Below are positions 2 through 5,710 of a stretch of DNA of 24,064 bases, piece by piece. The stretch's first letter is position 1, and every line of letters starts with the position of its first letter. The notes under the pieces were generated by a model. It did not search any database and was not told the DNA's origin. It saw only the letters and a program-made list of their open reading frames with translations. Location: the IMG/VR virus record IMGVR_UViG_3300036828_000801, positions 1 through 24,064 of that record. One strand, 5' to 3'. The position numbers and the translations under genes are program-made. This stretch comes from a virus.

Positions 2-67
2 GACAACGTCAAGCTGCTGAGACAGACTTCAGAAAACAATTGGGCCAGTGCGTTGGAACAGAGATGA
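2..67 (+). CDS. 3' end of an unidentified upstream gene (partial)
   Basis: Frame 2 is open from the window edge to a TGA at 65-67 and encodes a 21-residue C-terminal peptide ending WASALEQR. Its stop overlaps the ATG at 64 in an ATGA arrangement, the same junction used at 7084, 21248 and 22881 in this window, so this is probably the real end of the preceding gene, translationally coupled to the methyltransferase. The fragment is too short to identify. From its position in a head module it could be a terminase or another packaging gene, but that is inference only. Confidence 0.5.
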   Translation, partial: DNVKLLRQTSENNWASALEQR

Positions 68-621
68 GAATCGAAACCATATGGCCTTCGATGCTTGTGA
101 ATGGACAATTTTCCAAGTATCTTGGAGCTACAGAATGTTCCATTCTGATAGACTTGGTCAAGAGCGTCGAACCAAAGGTGATGATAGAGTTCGGGTGTAA
201 TCTCGGGATCACCGCCAAGCGGATTCTGGAAAATGTTCCAACGTTGGAGAAATACATCGGAATAGATGTTGAGTCAAAATATAAAACAACTTTGAAATGT
301 CAGCGAGAAGAAGTTCCAGATGCAGCTGGATGTTATGCAAATGACTCGCGATTTCATCTTTTAATTTGTCCAACTCAATGTTTGACAGAGAATGATCTGG
401 AGCCTTGTGACGCGGTGTTCATAGACGGTGATCATAGTTTTTATGCAGTAAGGCACGAGAGTCAGATTGCCAGAGATTTGGTCAGACCAGGTGGAATCAT
501 AATATGGCATGATTTTCAAAATCCAGCAGTGGAAGTTACTGCGGTATTGACTGGACTTGAAGCAGAGGGCTGGCCGATAGTGGGACTGAAGAATTCTTGG
601 TTGGCTTATATGAGGAGATAA
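64..621 (+). CDS. Class I SAM-dependent methyltransferase-like protein
   Basis: A 185-residue Rossmann-type protein. Motifs seen: IEFGCNLG at residues 41-48 (SAM-binding glycine loop after strand 1), YIGIDVE near 64-70 with the acidic residue ending strand 2, FIDGDHS at 119-125, and PGGIIIWHDF at 142-151. This pattern belongs to the Methyltransf_24 / cephalosporin-hydroxylase-like group often found in phages; the substrate is unknown. The frame is open upstream to position 1 with a TTG at 40, but I chose ATG 64 because it forms an ATGA overlap with the preceding stop and has GGA at 55-57 and GAG at 61-63 upstream. It is cotranscribed with the capsid gene four bases downstream, so it may modify a virion component or the host surface; this is inference. 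Confidence 0.8.
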   Translation: MRIETIWPSMLVNGQFSKYLGATECSILIDLVKSVEPKVMIEFGCNLGITAKRILENVPTLEKYIGIDVESKYKTTLKCQREEVPDAAGCYANDSRFHLLICPTQCLTENDLEPCDAVFIDGDHSFYAVRHESQIARDLVRPGGIIIWHDFQNPAVEVTAVLTGLEAEGWPIVGLKNSWLAYMRR

Positions 622-625
622 AACT

Positions 626-2872
626 ATGCCTATGAAGCCACACAAGGACGAGAGCCAGAGTGATTTCATGGCCAGATGCGTGCCAGAAATGATCGGAACT
701 GGATCTGACAAAAGGCCTCAGGAACAGGCCGTCGCCATCTGCTATGACATTTGGCGGAATAAAGACAAACAGATGCCAGATCCAGGCGATTATGAAGATG
801 ACGAGGAAGATGATTTCATATCCGACTGTGTTGATGAGATTGGCAACGAAGACGTTTGTCAGATGCTTTGGGAGGATCGCTCTGTAGCTGCCGCCGGGAT
901 CAGGCACAAGACCCATGATGGCAAGGTCAATGGAATGGAGTTTATCTTGTCCGATGAGACGCCGGATCGCATGGATGACATCATCATGAGCGATGGTTGG
1001 GATTTCAAGCATTTCAAGAAAAACCCAATAGCTCTGTTTGGACATCGTTCAGATTTTCCGATCGGGAAATGGAACAATATCCGTGTAGAGAATAAGAGTT
1101 TGATGGCCAATCTCGAGTTTGCTCCAGAGGGTACAAGCGAGAGAATTGACGAAATCAGGAGGCTGGTTGACGCCGGCATCTTGAAGGCGGTCTCTGTTGG
1201 TTTCAAACCAAAGGAGAGTAAGGCAAGAGAGGGCACCGATTGGGGTTCGATTTATATGAAATGCGAACTGGTGGAATGCAGCGTAGTTGCAGTTCCGGCT
1301 AATCCGAACGCGCTGGCTGTAGCCAAGAACTTGAAAATTTCACCCGAAACTATAGGCATGATCTTCGCCGGGCAAGGCAAAGAAGATGGTGTCAAGCGTC
1401 AAGGGTTTCGCGGCGGGCATGCCAAAAGTAGTCGAAACGGAAAGGGCAGACCCATGTCTAGCCTAGCTCAGCGTATCATAGACCTGGAGACAGCGATCAC
1501 TTCCAGGCGTGATGAACTCGAGGCTCATCTCGAGAAGATTGACGACAGCAATGTGAGCAATACAGATCTTGAGACTACTACGAGGCTTAATGATGATATT
1601 GCTCAAATGGAAAAGACTAGAGAGACCTGGATCAACAGCGAGAGGCTGTTGGCCAGAAGCACTGGACCTGATGGTTCTCGCGCTCTCAGCACTGTGGTTC
1701 ACAGGCAAGAGACTACACCGGTGGCTCCGGCGGTAATCTCGAACCGAAGGAAGGACAGCATCGATGTGCTGGATCTGTTTATCAAGGCCGGCACCTTGGC
1801 TTATTTTGCCAAGTCAGCTGGAAGCACTCTGGAGGCTGCAAGGTCGAAGATCGCTCAGCGTCATCCGGAATATATGGATGAAGCTACCAAAATCGTGGCA
1901 GATATCGTGCTTAGAGCGGCGTCGGCTCCGGCTTTGACCACTGTTGCAGGTTGGGCTCAGGAACTTGCGCAGACTACCTACGCGGCTTTGATGCCTTTGC
2001 TCATGCCTCAGGCCATTCTTACTCGTTTGGCTCCCAAAGGAATTTCACTCAGCTTTGGAGCTGCTGGCAGGATCGTCATTCCTACTCGCAATCGAACGCC
2101 AACTCTTGCTGGATCGTTCGTTGGTGAAGGTTTGGCTATTCCGGTCAGGCAGGGAGCGTTCTCCAGCCAAACGCTTACTCCGAAGAAGATGGCAGTGATC
2201 ACTACCTGGACCAGGGAAATGGACGAGCATTCCATTCCAGCGATCGAGGGATTGCTCAGAGAGGCTATTCAGCAGGATACCAGCGTGGCAGTTGACACTG
2301 TTCTCATCGACGCCAATGCTGCCACTACGGTCAGGCCAGCTGGCCTGTTAAACGGCGTGGGCGTGACGACGGCTACTGCTGGCGGTGGCATCGCCGGTCT
2401 TGTAGGTGACATTGTCGGGCTTATCAACGCGATCAGCACTGCCACTTTCGGCAATGTTCGCAACTTGGTTTGGCTCGTCAATCAGACTGACATGCTCAGG
2501 GCGTCTCTATTGTCCGCGGCAAATACCGGCATCTTCCCGTTCCGCGATGAAATTCGCGGCGGCACTTTGGCTACCATTCCGTTCATCGCCTCTGCTACAG
2601 TTACGGCAAAGACGATGATTTTGGTGGACGCCGCTGATTTTGTGGTTATCGGCGGTGATGCTCCCAGGATGGAGATGTCTGATCAGGCTACTCTTCACAT
2701 GGAAGATACCAGTCCACAGGAACTCGTTGCGGCTCCGTCTCCGGGCACGGTCGCTGTTCCTCAGCGCTCGCTGTTCCAGACTGATTCGCTGGCTCTGAGG
2801 ATGGTACTGCCTTTGAACTGGGTGCAGCGCCGGGCTGGTACCGTCGCTTGGACTCAAAACGTAACTTGGTAA
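626..2872 (+). CDS. Fused HK97-type prohead protease and major capsid protein
   Basis: A 748-residue fusion. Residues 1-82 hold two short Cys/Trp motif copies (D13-W43 and D63-W82). Residues about 88-235 are an S78 prohead protease: His140 in FGHRSDFPIGKW, Ser190 in LKAVSVGF, and an acidic residue in ELVE (Glu214 or Glu217) are the likely catalytic positions. Residues 277-345 are charged, predicted coiled coil, like the HK97 delta (scaffolding) domain. Residues about 375-748 are an HK97-fold capsid protein, with a typical N-arm/E-loop region and the ending LPLNWVQRRAGTVAWTQ. GAGGAG at 612-617 serves the start. In most HK97-like phages protease and capsid are separate genes of roughly 200 and 400 residues. 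A second start at 1454 (ATG after AAAGGG) could make capsid alone, otherwise autocleavage must free it. Confidence 0.93.
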   Translation: MPMKPHKDESQSDFMARCVPEMIGTGSDKRPQEQAVAICYDIWRNKDKQMPDPGDYEDDEEDDFISDCVDEIGNEDVCQMLWEDRSVAAAGIRHKTHDGKVNGMEFILSDETPDRMDDIIMSDGWDFKHFKKNPIALFGHRSDFPIGKWNNIRVENKSLMANLEFAPEGTSERIDEIRRLVDAGILKAVSVGFKPKESKAREGTDWGSIYMKCELVECSVVAVPANPNALAVAKNLKISPETIGMIFAGQGKEDGVKRQGFRGGHAKSSRNGKGRPMSSLAQRIIDLETAITSRRDELEAHLEKIDDSNVSNTDLETTTRLNDDIAQMEKTRETWINSERLLARSTGPDGSRALSTVVHRQETTPVAPAVISNRRKDSIDVLDLFIKAGTLAYFAKSAGSTLEAARSKIAQRHPEYMDEATKIVADIVLRAASAPALTTVAGWAQELAQTTYAALMPLLMPQAILTRLAPKGISLSFGAAGRIVIPTRNRTPTLAGSFVGEGLAIPVRQGAFSSQTLTPKKMAVITTWTREMDEHSIPAIEGLLREAIQQDTSVAVDTVLIDANAATTVRPAGLLNGVGVTTATAGGGIAGLVGDIVGLINAISTATFGNVRNLVWLVNQTDMLRASLLSAANTGIFPFRDEIRGGTLATIPFIASATVTAKTMILVDAADFVVIGGDAPRMEMSDQATLHMEDTSPQELVAAPSPGTVAVPQRSLFQTDSLALRMVLPLNWVQRRAGTVAWTQNVTW
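1441..1456 (+). promoter_or_regulatory. Internal Shine-Dalgarno and ATG within the protease-capsid fusion
   Basis: AAAGGG at 1441-1446 lies seven bases before an in-frame ATG at 1454-1456. That ATG begins the segment MSSLAQRIIDLETA, exactly where the delta-like coiled coil starts and after the protease domain ends. Initiation here would give a 472-residue capsid precursor without the protease, allowing excess capsid over protease from one ORF. The sequence shows the site; its use is inference. Confidence 0.5.
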
Positions 2873-2882
2873 GGAGACAAAC

Positions 2883-3158
2883 ATGACCAAATATGCAGAT
2901 GATCCATCAACCGAGAATGCCAAGAAGGCGCTAGAGGCTGATCGCAAGATTTCCGAAAAGTCGAAAGCAGAGTTTGCTGATCGTTCCAAAGGCAAACCTA
3001 CTCCGACTCAGGAGGAAAATGACATGTCAGCTCTTGGCGCTCACATTCTTGAACATGAGGCTGATGGAAGTGATCCTGATCCTTATATCGGCAAAAACCT
3101 GGAGGCTACTGCTCCGAGAGCATATCAGACCAAGGCGTCGACTCCAAAATCGAGTTAA
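2883..3158 (+). CDS. Small acidic protein of unknown function between capsid and portal
   Basis: A 91-residue hydrophilic protein with a very good ribosome site (AAGGAG at 2871-2876). It has no membrane segment or signal peptide. It is Lys/Glu-rich in the first 30 residues and carries the segment KPTPTQEENDMSALGAHI near 38-55 and EADGSDPDPY near 59-68, then a basic Ser/Thr-rich end. I recall similar short proteins next to capsid genes in phages and prophages but know no function. Position suggests a head accessory or assembly factor; the sequence alone does not show this. Confidence 0.75.
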   Translation: MTKYADDPSTENAKKALEADRKISEKSKAEFADRSKGKPTPTQEENDMSALGAHILEHEADGSDPDPYIGKNLEATAPRAYQTKASTPKSS

Positions 3159-3162
3159 TTGA

Positions 3163-4578
3163 ATGCGTTCGTTGATCGCAAACACCTTAAGATCTGTTCT
3201 TAAGGCAGTCGAGGGCAGCTATCGTCCTGGGCCATATTATTTGCCAATTACAGGAGGTTGGCTTCCACAAGGTGCCGCGATCAATTGGTGGCAAGAAGGC
3301 TACAACCCTCTTTACGCTTCAACGTGTTCTGCCATGGTGGAGGCTTGCGTGTCTGCATACGCGCAAACGGTCGCCATGTGCCCGGGGGACCATTGGCGAC
3401 TGAACTCCAAGGGCGGGCGAGACAGAGTGAAGAATTCTGCTCTCGCCCGCATCTTGAGGCATCCTAATGCTTATCAATCCATCAGCGATTTTATGCTGAA
3501 TATCGTTAGATCGCTTTACTTAACTGGTAACGCTTACGCGTTGGCTTTGAGAAACGACCGCTATGAGATTTCCGAACTTCACCCGATGAACCCAGACATA
3601 TCGTATCCACGCTTGGCAGTCAACGGAGAGATATTTTATTGGCTAGGTGGCAATGATGTCATGGCCAAAATGTTGAACGAGGAATATCTTGTTGTTCCCA
3701 TGAGGGATGTACTTCACATCAGACTCCATGTGGAAAAGAAACGTTATCCAACTCCGCTGGTAGGAGAATCCCCGATCATTTCGGCTTATGGTGACATAGG
3801 AGTGTCAGAAGCCATAGCCAGACAACAAACTCAGTTCTACATGAACGAGGCCAGGCCATCGGCGGTTTTATCTACAGATTTGGTCTTGGACAAGGATCAG
3901 GTTCAGGCGCTTCGCGATCGTTGGAATGATCAATCAAAGGGTTTGGCTCAAGGTGGCACTCCGATATTGACCGCTGGTCTTAAGGTTCAACCTTGGGCAT
4001 TCGGAGGTAAGGACGCTGGCACTGCAGAAATGCTCAAGCTTTCCAACGAACACATCGCGTTGGCGTTCAGGATACCGTTGCAAATTTTAGGTTTGGGCGG
4101 TACGACGTACTCCTCCACGGAATTGTTGATGCAAAGCTGGATCGCCATGGGTCTGGGCTTTTGCCTCAATCACGTGGAGGAGGCGTTCGGCGTTTTGTTT
4201 CAGCTTAAAGGTCAGCCGGATGAATATGTTGAGTTTGATACTGCCTCTCTGTTGAGGTCAGCTTTCAAGGAAAGAATTGAAGGTTTAGCCAGAGGTGTTC
4301 AAGGTGGCATTTACGCTCCCAACGAGGCCAGAAATCTGGAGGGTCTCGAGGCCGTACCATTTGGAGATGAACCTAGAGTTCAACAGCAAGTTGTTCCATT
4401 AAGTGCTGCCGAAAAAATACCGGCGCCACCACCGGCTCCTCCAGCGGCTGGACCAGCGGATAAACCAATACCCAAGCCACCTCCTGAGAAAGATAATCAT
4501 GATGACATCCAACGGGAAGTCAGAAACCTTCTTAGGCTCACCGAGTCCATTGGACAAAGGCGAAGAAATTCTGCTTGA
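3163..4578 (+). CDS. HK97-family portal protein
   Basis: A 471-residue portal: the dodecameric ring at the capsid vertex through which DNA is packaged and ejected. Family signs are the N-terminal YASTCSAMVEACVSAYAQTVA helix, LTGNAYALALRN, the block RDVLHIRLHVEKKRYP, GESPIISAYGDIGVSEAIARQQ, and the late segment FRIPLQILGLGGTTYSSTELL. The last about 65 residues are Pro/Ala-rich and then charged. Its start has only a weak upstream GAG and sits four bases after the previous stop, so it may depend on coupling. It follows the protease/capsid gene, whereas in HK97-like phages portal usually precedes protease and capsid. Its 3' end overlaps the collagen-like gene by about 80 bases in another frame. 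Confidence 0.93.
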   Translation: MRSLIANTLRSVLKAVEGSYRPGPYYLPITGGWLPQGAAINWWQEGYNPLYASTCSAMVEACVSAYAQTVAMCPGDHWRLNSKGGRDRVKNSALARILRHPNAYQSISDFMLNIVRSLYLTGNAYALALRNDRYEISELHPMNPDISYPRLAVNGEIFYWLGGNDVMAKMLNEEYLVVPMRDVLHIRLHVEKKRYPTPLVGESPIISAYGDIGVSEAIARQQTQFYMNEARPSAVLSTDLVLDKDQVQALRDRWNDQSKGLAQGGTPILTAGLKVQPWAFGGKDAGTAEMLKLSNEHIALAFRIPLQILGLGGTTYSSTELLMQSWIAMGLGFCLNHVEEAFGVLFQLKGQPDEYVEFDTASLLRSAFKERIEGLARGVQGGIYAPNEARNLEGLEAVPFGDEPRVQQQVVPLSAAEKIPAPPPAPPAAGPADKPIPKPPPEKDNHDDIQREVRNLLRLTESIGQRRRNSA

Positions 4579-5710
4579 CGCGTGGCGGGTTGCTCTCGCG
4601 GAGACGCTCGACAAACAACAGATGGAGTGGGAGCGTCATTGTAAGTTGATGGAAGCTCAGTCATCTGCGATCATCTCCAGGTTGGAGGCTCAGGTTGCCA
4701 CGCTCAATGAGCGGATCAATTTCAGATTGGCAGAGCTTAAAGATGGAAAGGATGGTGAGCCTGGTTCGGCTGGTCCTCCGGGAGCAATTGGGCCGGCCGG
4801 TCCCGCAGGTGAGTCAGGACCAAAAGGTGATACAGGGTTAAAGGGTGACGCGGGTGATCCAGGCGAGCACGGTAAGCAAGGTGAACAAGGCTTGCGTGGT
4901 GAGGCTGGTATCAACGGCGATCCTGGTGAAAAGGGTGATCCAGGCGAGAAGGGTGACGTTGGACCAATTGGCGATCGTGGTCCCGAAGGGTCTTCAGGGG
5001 AGCGGGGCGAGAAAGGTGATCCTGGTCCTCAGGGTGAATGTGGTCAACGAGGCGAAAAGGGTATTGGAGGAAAAGATGGTGAAAAAGGTGAAAAAGGTGA
5101 AAAAGGCGAGAAAGGCGATCGTGGCAGTCAAGGTGAAAGAGGCGAAAAAGGTGACCAAGGCCAAATTGGCAAAGACGGTGAATCAGGGAAGGATGGGTCG
5201 CCGGGGTTCTTGAGGGAAGTCAGACAATTTATCTCGGGCGGTGTCAACTATCGCAGTGATCTTGTAATTCACAATGGCAGCACTTATCAGGCTAGATGCG
5301 ATACGGCTCAAGCTCCTCCTCACGAGGATTGGGCTTGCATTGCTTCGGCTGGAAAAAATGCTGTAGTACCCATGATCAAAGGCACGTGGAAGGATGACGC
5401 TGTCTATAATTTCTTGAACATGGTGGCGCTTAATGGCTCCAGTTTCATCGCCAAGTGCGATGATCCTGGACCTTGTCCCGGAGATGGCTGGCAGTTGATT
5501 GCCAGTGCTGGCAAGCCTGGCAGACCAGGTCAGAAGGGTGATCATGGAGAACGGGGATTATCAGGCATAACCACTGTGGTGACGATGGCATTCAAGGGCT
5601 GGCGAATAGATCGAGAGAATTACACTATCATTCCGATTTTGGATGATGGATCTGAAGGAGCAGCTTTGCATCTTCGAGCTTTGTTTGAGCAATACGACGG
5701 AGAGCGTTGA
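4502..5710 (+). CDS. Collagen-like structural protein with two carbohydrate-binding-like modules
   Basis: About 402 residues. Residues 1-80 include a predicted coiled coil (from LLDAWRVALAETLDKQQ to LNERINFRLAEL), a likely trimerisation region. Residues 82-234 are 51 uninterrupted Gly-X-Y triplets rich in GEK, GDP and GER, typical of bacterial and phage collagen-like triple helices. Next come two similar modules at about 241-284 and 292-337, each with Y/F-x-A-x-C-D, a Pro-rich turn, W, and IASAGK, resembling small Trp-containing carbohydrate-binding (CBM5/12-type) modules. A short six-triplet collagen stretch at 337-354 and a C-terminal beta-like tail follow. The adjacent ATG codons at 4499 and 4502 are preceded by GAG at 4486-4488; the open frame upstream to 4403 lies inside the portal gene and is less likely. 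Its place among head genes suggests a capsid fibre, which is inference. Confidence 0.85.
   Translation: MTSNGKSETFLGSPSPLDKGEEILLDAWRVALAETLDKQQMEWERHCKLMEAQSSAIISRLEAQVATLNERINFRLAELKDGKDGEPGSAGPPGAIGPAGPAGESGPKGDTGLKGDAGDPGEHGKQGEQGLRGEAGINGDPGEKGDPGEKGDVGPIGDRGPEGSSGERGEKGDPGPQGECGQRGEKGIGGKDGEKGEKGEKGEKGDRGSQGERGEKGDQGQIGKDGESGKDGSPGFLREVRQFISGGVNYRSDLVIHNGSTYQARCDTAQAPPHEDWACIASAGKNAVVPMIKGTWKDDAVYNFLNMVALNGSSFIAKCDDPGPCPGDGWQLIASAGKPGRPGQKGDHGERGLSGITTVVTMAFKGWRIDRENYTIIPILDDGSEGAALHLRALFEQYDGER
4745..5203 (+). repeat. Gly-X-Y collagen triplet-repeat region
   Basis: Nine-base periodicity encoding 51 Gly-X-Y triplets without interruption. The most regular part, 5081-5116, has four consecutive nine-base units (GAAAAAGGT, GAAAAAGGT, GAAAAAGGC, GAGAAAGGC) encoding GEK, and could expand or contract by slippage in steps of one triplet without changing frame. 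Confidence 0.9.

Follow-up and report, generated by a model that had tools for sequence, protein, structure and literature searches.

Protease-Capsid Fusion Gene and Its Domains

The locus analyzed here encodes an S78 prohead protease, a delta-like coiled coil and an HK97-fold capsid protein in a single ORF, which raises the question of whether a protease domain is carried by every shell subunit or whether the gene gives two products. The analyzed window is the whole 24,064-base virus record IMGVR_UViG_3300036828_000801. According to the ORF list and the Pfam and PHROG profile searches, it contains a head-and-contractile-tail cluster with the order methyltransferase-like ORF, protease-capsid fusion, small ORF, portal, collagen-like fiber, connector, sheath and tail lysozyme (Table 1). 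The collagen-like fiber ORF (4403-5710) overlaps the end of the portal gene, and comparison with relatives indicates that its true start is probably further downstream.

The uninterrupted 748-codon frame described in the initial annotation was borne out by the ORF reading. A frame error or an assembly artefact as the source of the fusion was ruled out, as about 80 contigs share the fusion frame. The protease-capsid fusion as such is of a known kind, represented by phrog_617 and by the Pseudomonas phages PAJU2 and MD8, and the arrangement as such is not unusual, as NCBIfam and PHROGs already contain such families. The PHROG 617 profile spans both domains (residues 103-748 against positions 27-626 of 626, E 2.3e-82). 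The cut-off of NCBIfam NF045541 (prohead protease/major capsid protein fusion protein) was not reached (41.6 bits vs. 525); the window fusion is thus of the same kind and lies outside the NF045541 family.

Table 1. Positions of features in the window and of the second capsid gene (capsid2) in related loci (L numbers).
Feature	Position	Strand	Basis or remark
Methyltransferase-like ORF (Methyltransf_24)	40-621	+	Upstream of fusion; between second capsid gene and fusion in relatives
AGGAG Shine-Dalgarno (SD) of 5' start (ATG 626-628)	613-617	+	Duplex energy -9.4 kcal/mol
Protease-delta-capsid fusion ORF, 748 aa, ATG start	626-2872	+	Single uninterrupted 748-codon frame
N-terminal helical region, residues 1-88	626-889	+	Four predicted helices; first half absent in many relatives, where the ORF starts near residue 46
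S78 (HK97-type) prohead protease domain, residues 100-240	923-1345	+	Pfam, NCBIfam, conserved catalytic residues
Protease residue H140	1043-1045	+	Invariant
Protease residue S190	1193-1195	+	Invariant
Protease residue E214	1265-1267	+	At least 90% conserved
Protease residue E217	1274-1276	+	Invariant
Disordered linker, residues 249-276	1370-1453	+	Low model confidence; sequence poorly conserved
Internal SD-like GGAAAGGG	1439-1446	+	AAAGGG at 1441-1446 inside it
Internal in-frame ATG (M277), start of predicted 472-aa delta-capsid product	1454-1456	+	Conservation, SD, split relatives
Delta-like coiled coil, residues 277-347	1454-1666	+	AlphaFold2 model; helices 279-304 and 312-345
Second disordered stretch, residues 348-377	1667-1756	+	Low model confidence
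HK97-fold capsid domain, residues 378-748	1757-2869	+	Profile matches; 8gta_A E 1.8e-5
91-aa ORF directly 3' of fusion	2883-3158	+	Conserved in relatives; no family match
Portal protein	3163-4578	+	PF04860, E 1.1e-67
capsid2	L001:558-1610; L005:1181-2245; L006:1177-2250; L042:3833-4891; others		Upstream of fusion

As for the protease part, PF04586 (Peptidase_S78) matches residues 132-232 (E 5e-9; 36.9 bits vs. a gathering score of 21), and the TIGR01543 score was under the cut-off of that profile (43.1 vs. 59). The catalytic residues proposed earlier (His140, Ser190 and Glu214/217) were confirmed in 52 homologues in which conservation was scored. The Pfam score and these conserved His, Ser and Glu residues identify the domain as a predicted S78 prohead protease. 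The N-terminal region preceding it (626-889) resembles a degenerate repeat (FMARC...AICYDIW and FISDC...CQMLWEDR).

The proposed HK97 fold of the C-terminal part was likewise upheld by profiles. PF05065 (Phage_capsid) matches residues 460-686 (E 2.8e-9; 37.2 vs. 24.2 bits) and TIGR01554 scores 40.0 bits against a cut-off of 27.5, which places this part among predicted HK97-fold major capsid proteins. The AlphaFold2 model of the fusion has low confidence at residues 249-277 and 347-377; the first of these stretches and the helices that follow it (279-304 and 312-345) put the internal ATG at a domain boundary and give the order protease, linker, delta hairpin, linker, capsid. The model is poor over residues 433-576 and 673-732 (pTM 0.29). 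A structure search returned HK97 and similar capsids at the top with weak E-values (best PDB match 5wk1_A, E 2.2e-3); over the capsid, the model is too weak as proof of the fold, and the profiles were used instead. Residues 348-377 are the putative region of maturation cleavage, because the delta-less capsid paralogue of related phages begins approximately there.

Putative Internal Start Codon in the Window and Its Family

The initial annotation had proposed that AAAGGG and an in-frame ATG at the protease/delta boundary serve as an internal start for the capsid. Both elements are at the positions given there, and GGAAAGGG is the better reading of the motif. The comparison set of the window family consisted of 80 IMG/VR loci and two Bradyrhizobium genome loci encoding relatives. 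The internal ATG is kept in 79/79 sequences with a readable boundary, including the window: 76 have it in the same column and three have it one codon away, with the SD shifted as well. The loss of AAAGGG/ATG in homologues, which the annotation had named as evidence against its proposal, was therefore not observed. M277 is present in 51 of the 52 alignment rows, whereas conservation of residues 267-276 is mostly below 65%.

Upstream of the ATG, members of the family have GGAAAGGG, AGAAGGGG, GACAGGAGGGG or a similar sequence. In two loci (L010 and L011), a GAAAGGG run occurs in another reading frame, so that the encoded peptide is NERV rather than NGKG. For 44 representatives sharing less than 80% identity, the anti-SD energy averaged -5.9 kcal/mol at the internal start vs. 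-2.0 kcal/mol for 917 other in-frame ATGs (p 9e-15), and columns 277-278 had the lowest mean anti-SD energy among 706 alignment columns. The SD of the family also exceeds that of synonymous shuffles keeping the peptide (excess -1.72 +/- 0.42, p 4e-4). The window's own SD (-4.6 kcal/mol) showed no excess over synonymous shuffles of its own linker, and the case thus rests on the comparison and not on this copy alone. One subclade (L061, L069-L072 and L080) has a weak SD.

Distant Fusion Families and Split Relatives

The best full-length database matches to the window fusion were distant fusions with 25-27% identity. Four such fusions (RHph_X2_26, FSL SP-016, PPompW and PAJU2) were inspected, and in each of them the aligned boundary carries an ATG accompanied by an SD. 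Scans with three of the four yielded 180 more loci; in the three distant families, which are ~25% identical, 69, 80 and 12 loci are fused. A start codon was found at the boundary in every ORF longer than 450 aa (72/72, 80/80 and 15/15, counts that include a few split genes). In all four families, including that of the window, the anti-SD energy minimum lies 5-6 nt upstream of the ATG. AGGAGG is the usual SD in PAJU2-like phages, with a mean energy of -9.2 and an excess over synonymous shuffles of -2.44 +/- 0.27 (p 2e-9); the excess in RHph-like phages had p 0.03. The SD core occurs in three different reading frames across the fusions, which indicates that the nucleotides are kept and not the peptide. 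In three families (window, PAJU2-like and SP-016-like), the RNA has less structure near the internal start than elsewhere in the gene. In addition, the ATG before the coiled coil of the Lactococcus phage Nocturne116, which has also been suggested to carry a fusion (PMC8306868), is preceded by AAAAGGAAAATGAAAAT. Taken across these families, an internal start seems to characterize S78 protease-capsid fusions in general.

More evidence was obtained from 14 relatives that have the protease and the capsid protein as separate ORFs. In all 14 split loci, the capsid start lies at most two codons from the residue homologous to the internal ATG and is accompanied by an SD. In L120, L145, L156 and L251, the upstream frame has a stop 3-12 nt before the first start, and in L260 and L267 the protease and capsid frames overlap by 4 nt. 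L254, L260 and L267 differ from fused loci by a frame and could be sequencing errors, while the other split loci have clear stops. A capsid tree that included 13 of the split loci contains at least seven changes between the fused and split states. The split relatives are the strongest single argument, as the internal site of the fused genes corresponds to a true gene start, that of the capsid, in close relatives.

Second Capsid Gene in the Window Clade

The initial annotation had supposed that one message would fix the stoichiometry without a second gene. This has to be revised, as most close relatives, where their upstream sequence extends far enough, have a separate HK97-fold capsid gene of ~355 aa upstream of the fusion, with neither protease nor delta (capsid2). 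In L006, it is placed after the terminase large subunit gene. An apparent absence of capsid2 from L010 and L011 proved wrong, the gene being ~9 kb upstream of the fusion in these contigs; several large structural or fiber-like ORFs lie between the two genes (L010:193-3990, L011:33-4020). A divergent capsid2 is located on the opposite side of the fusion in L068, and two delta-less capsid-like ORFs occur besides the fusion in L056 (1-1312) and L057 (2-1688), giving three capsid-like genes per locus. Capsid2 was not found in the records L061 (76.6 kb) and L080 (45.6 kb).

The window record opens a short distance upstream of the methyltransferase-like gene, which separates capsid2 from the fusion in relatives. 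L001, which is 92% identical, carries capsid2, and the window's own phage is likely to have this gene beyond the record edge. Weak glycosyltransferase-9-like matches were noted between both capsid genes in several relatives (L006:2219-3430, L020:1378-2529); together with the Methyltransf_24 gene, these genes may represent virion modification cargo.

Capsid2 aligns with the fusion from about the putative cleavage region onward, and a search with its model hit encapsulin and HK97-type folds (E from about 1e-6 to 2e-4). The capsid domain of the fusion is more conserved than capsid2 in 171/171 locus pairs (mean 74% vs. 57%), so judged from these alignments capsid2 evolves faster. Two capsid paralogues in one phage are also known as gp23 and gp24 of T4 (PMC3185693), a possible parallel for capsid2; both T4 proteins lack a protease and their roles are known. 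As a separate observation, a further capsid-like stretch was detected in the genome of Bradyrhizobium sp. SRL28, which contains locus L083 (genome G020, contig C241:64344-65495), as two matched pieces with a stop inside one of them.

Proposed Expression of the Fusion Gene and Alternatives

The ORF, its domains, the start and SD conserved in four diverged families and the homologous capsid start in split relatives are direct observations. On this basis, the fusion ORF is very probably a dual-product gene with internal initiation (a probability of roughly 0.85), and the internal start for the capsid put forward earlier is strongly supported by its conservation, the position of the SD, its recurrence in distant fusions and the split homologues. 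Ribosomes starting at 626 would produce the full protease-delta-capsid protein, and those starting at ATG 1454 would produce the 472-aa delta-capsid precursor. Since both products would have the same delta and capsid domains, they could co-assemble into one procapsid, and the covalent attachment would bring the protease inside the shell. The protease would then remove the delta and protease parts, presumably by cutting within residues ~348-377, and the shell would mature.

As for the ratio of the products, the claim that many capsid subunits and few fusions are made finds no support in the sequence, as the stronger SD in the window is that of the 5' start (-9.4 vs. -4.6 kcal/mol). The capsid product therefore need not dominate. 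The internal SD is stronger than the 5' SD in 9/36 members of the window family vs. 25/36 PAJU2-like phages; here the 5' start was picked as the best of several candidates, which biases the comparison toward the 5' SD, and SD energy alone does not equal the initiation rate.

A different reading takes the gene as encoding a polyprotein only, with all subunits made as the full fusion, the protease cleaving itself off and removing delta after assembly, and the internal ATG unused. The PAJU2 fusion has been read as an autocleaved polyprotein (as cited in PMC8306868), and the protease, scaffold and capsid of MD8 have been read as one gene (PMC8508860); an internal start is not mentioned in these published readings. 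The single uninterrupted frame, the invariant catalytic residues, the disordered linkers (249-277 and 347-377), which suit cleavage, and the stronger 5' SD are all compatible with a polyprotein. We consider it improbable nevertheless, because it predicts neither the boundary ATG and SD kept in four families, nor the SD excess over synonymous shuffles, nor the coincidence of this site with the capsid gene start in split relatives, and it would place a protease domain on every shell subunit. It is still harder to regard the ATG and SD as an inactive relic of an ancestral separate capsid gene. Split relatives do exist and interconvert with fused ones, so that fusions come from, or become, two genes; but the start is kept in homologues down to ~50% identity and across ~25% identical families while the linker peptide is rewritten, and the SD is stronger than protein coding requires. 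An equally remote explanation places the cause at the protein level, a basic/glycine linker peptide (flexible hinge or cleavage site) imposing purine-rich codons and the Met being structural. K or R at residue 273 and G at residue 274 are indeed common in the window family, and amino acids explain the window's own SD, yet the peptides vary between families (QEG, KKGNN, RKES, NERV) with the SD staying at 5-6 nt and using three frames.

The presence of capsid2 leads to another possibility, which is compatible with internal initiation and which we find rather doubtful: in the window clade, capsid2 would be the main shell protein and the fusion gene mainly a protease-scaffold carrier or a minor (e.g., vertex) capsid, so that the internal start would not set the main stoichiometry. 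Three points agree with such a role: where the upstream sequence is long enough, most clade members have capsid2 ahead of the fusion; its model has HK97-fold matches; and the 5' SD of the fusion gene is strong. The higher conservation of the fusion capsid domain in every locus pair argues against it, and the two loci without detected capsid2 (L061 and L080) imply that the fusion alone can suffice. Returning to the dual-product gene, its broadest form combines two statements, namely that S78 protease-capsid fusions are generally dual-product genes and not polyproteins, and that the window-clade shell is built as a mosaic from two HK97-fold proteins, in which the fusion-derived capsid brings delta (scaffold) and the protease and the delta-less capsid2 is incorporated without having a scaffold domain itself. 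We put forward this combination tentatively and regard it as less probable than not.

In the literature searched, no report of an internal start in protease-MCP fusions was found; subscription papers may differ. Hundreds of related phage genes retain the internal start signal. If it acts as proposed, annotated capsid "polyproteins" of this type would need to be re-read as two proteins per gene, and two ribosome-binding sites of a single message would control the dose of protease in the prohead. Dual products would be a simple means by which fused phages avoid placing a protease on each shell subunit. With the stronger SD being the internal one in PAJU2-like phages and the 5' one in the window family, their protease loads would be predicted to differ, and the delta-less capsid2 of the window clade raises the separate question of two-protein shells.

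Comparison with Known Systems

PAJU2 and the PHROG 617 fusions resemble the window gene in having an S78 protease, a delta-like coil and an HK97-fold capsid in one ORF and, as seen in the present comparison, the same internal ATG with an SD. The window family differs from them in its additional helical region at the N-terminus, in the lower strength of its internal SD and in the second capsid gene that most clade members possess. MD8 gp5 also encodes the protease, scaffold and MCP in one gene (PMC8508860); in contrast to the window gene, its protease is ClpP/S49-like, and its internal start candidates, M185 and M220, are ambiguous.

HK97 has the same domains in the same order, as gp4 (protease) and gp5 (delta-capsid), and the predicted internal product corresponds to gp5 with delta. 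These are two separate genes in HK97, whereas here one frame with a putative internal start would encode both.

In phage lambda, the protease gene C contains an in-frame internal start for the scaffold Nu3; the internal product is thus the scaffold, the capsid protein E is separate, and the protease belongs to the S49 family. The likeness consists in a single frame that yields a protease fusion and, through internal initiation, a shorter assembly protein, as predicted for the window gene. The latter differs in that its internal product would be the capsid and its protease is of the S78 and not the S49 type. The conserved start codon and SD at a domain boundary, by which a C/Nu3-type arrangement can be recognized, are present in the window gene and its relatives and mark it as a candidate of this type.
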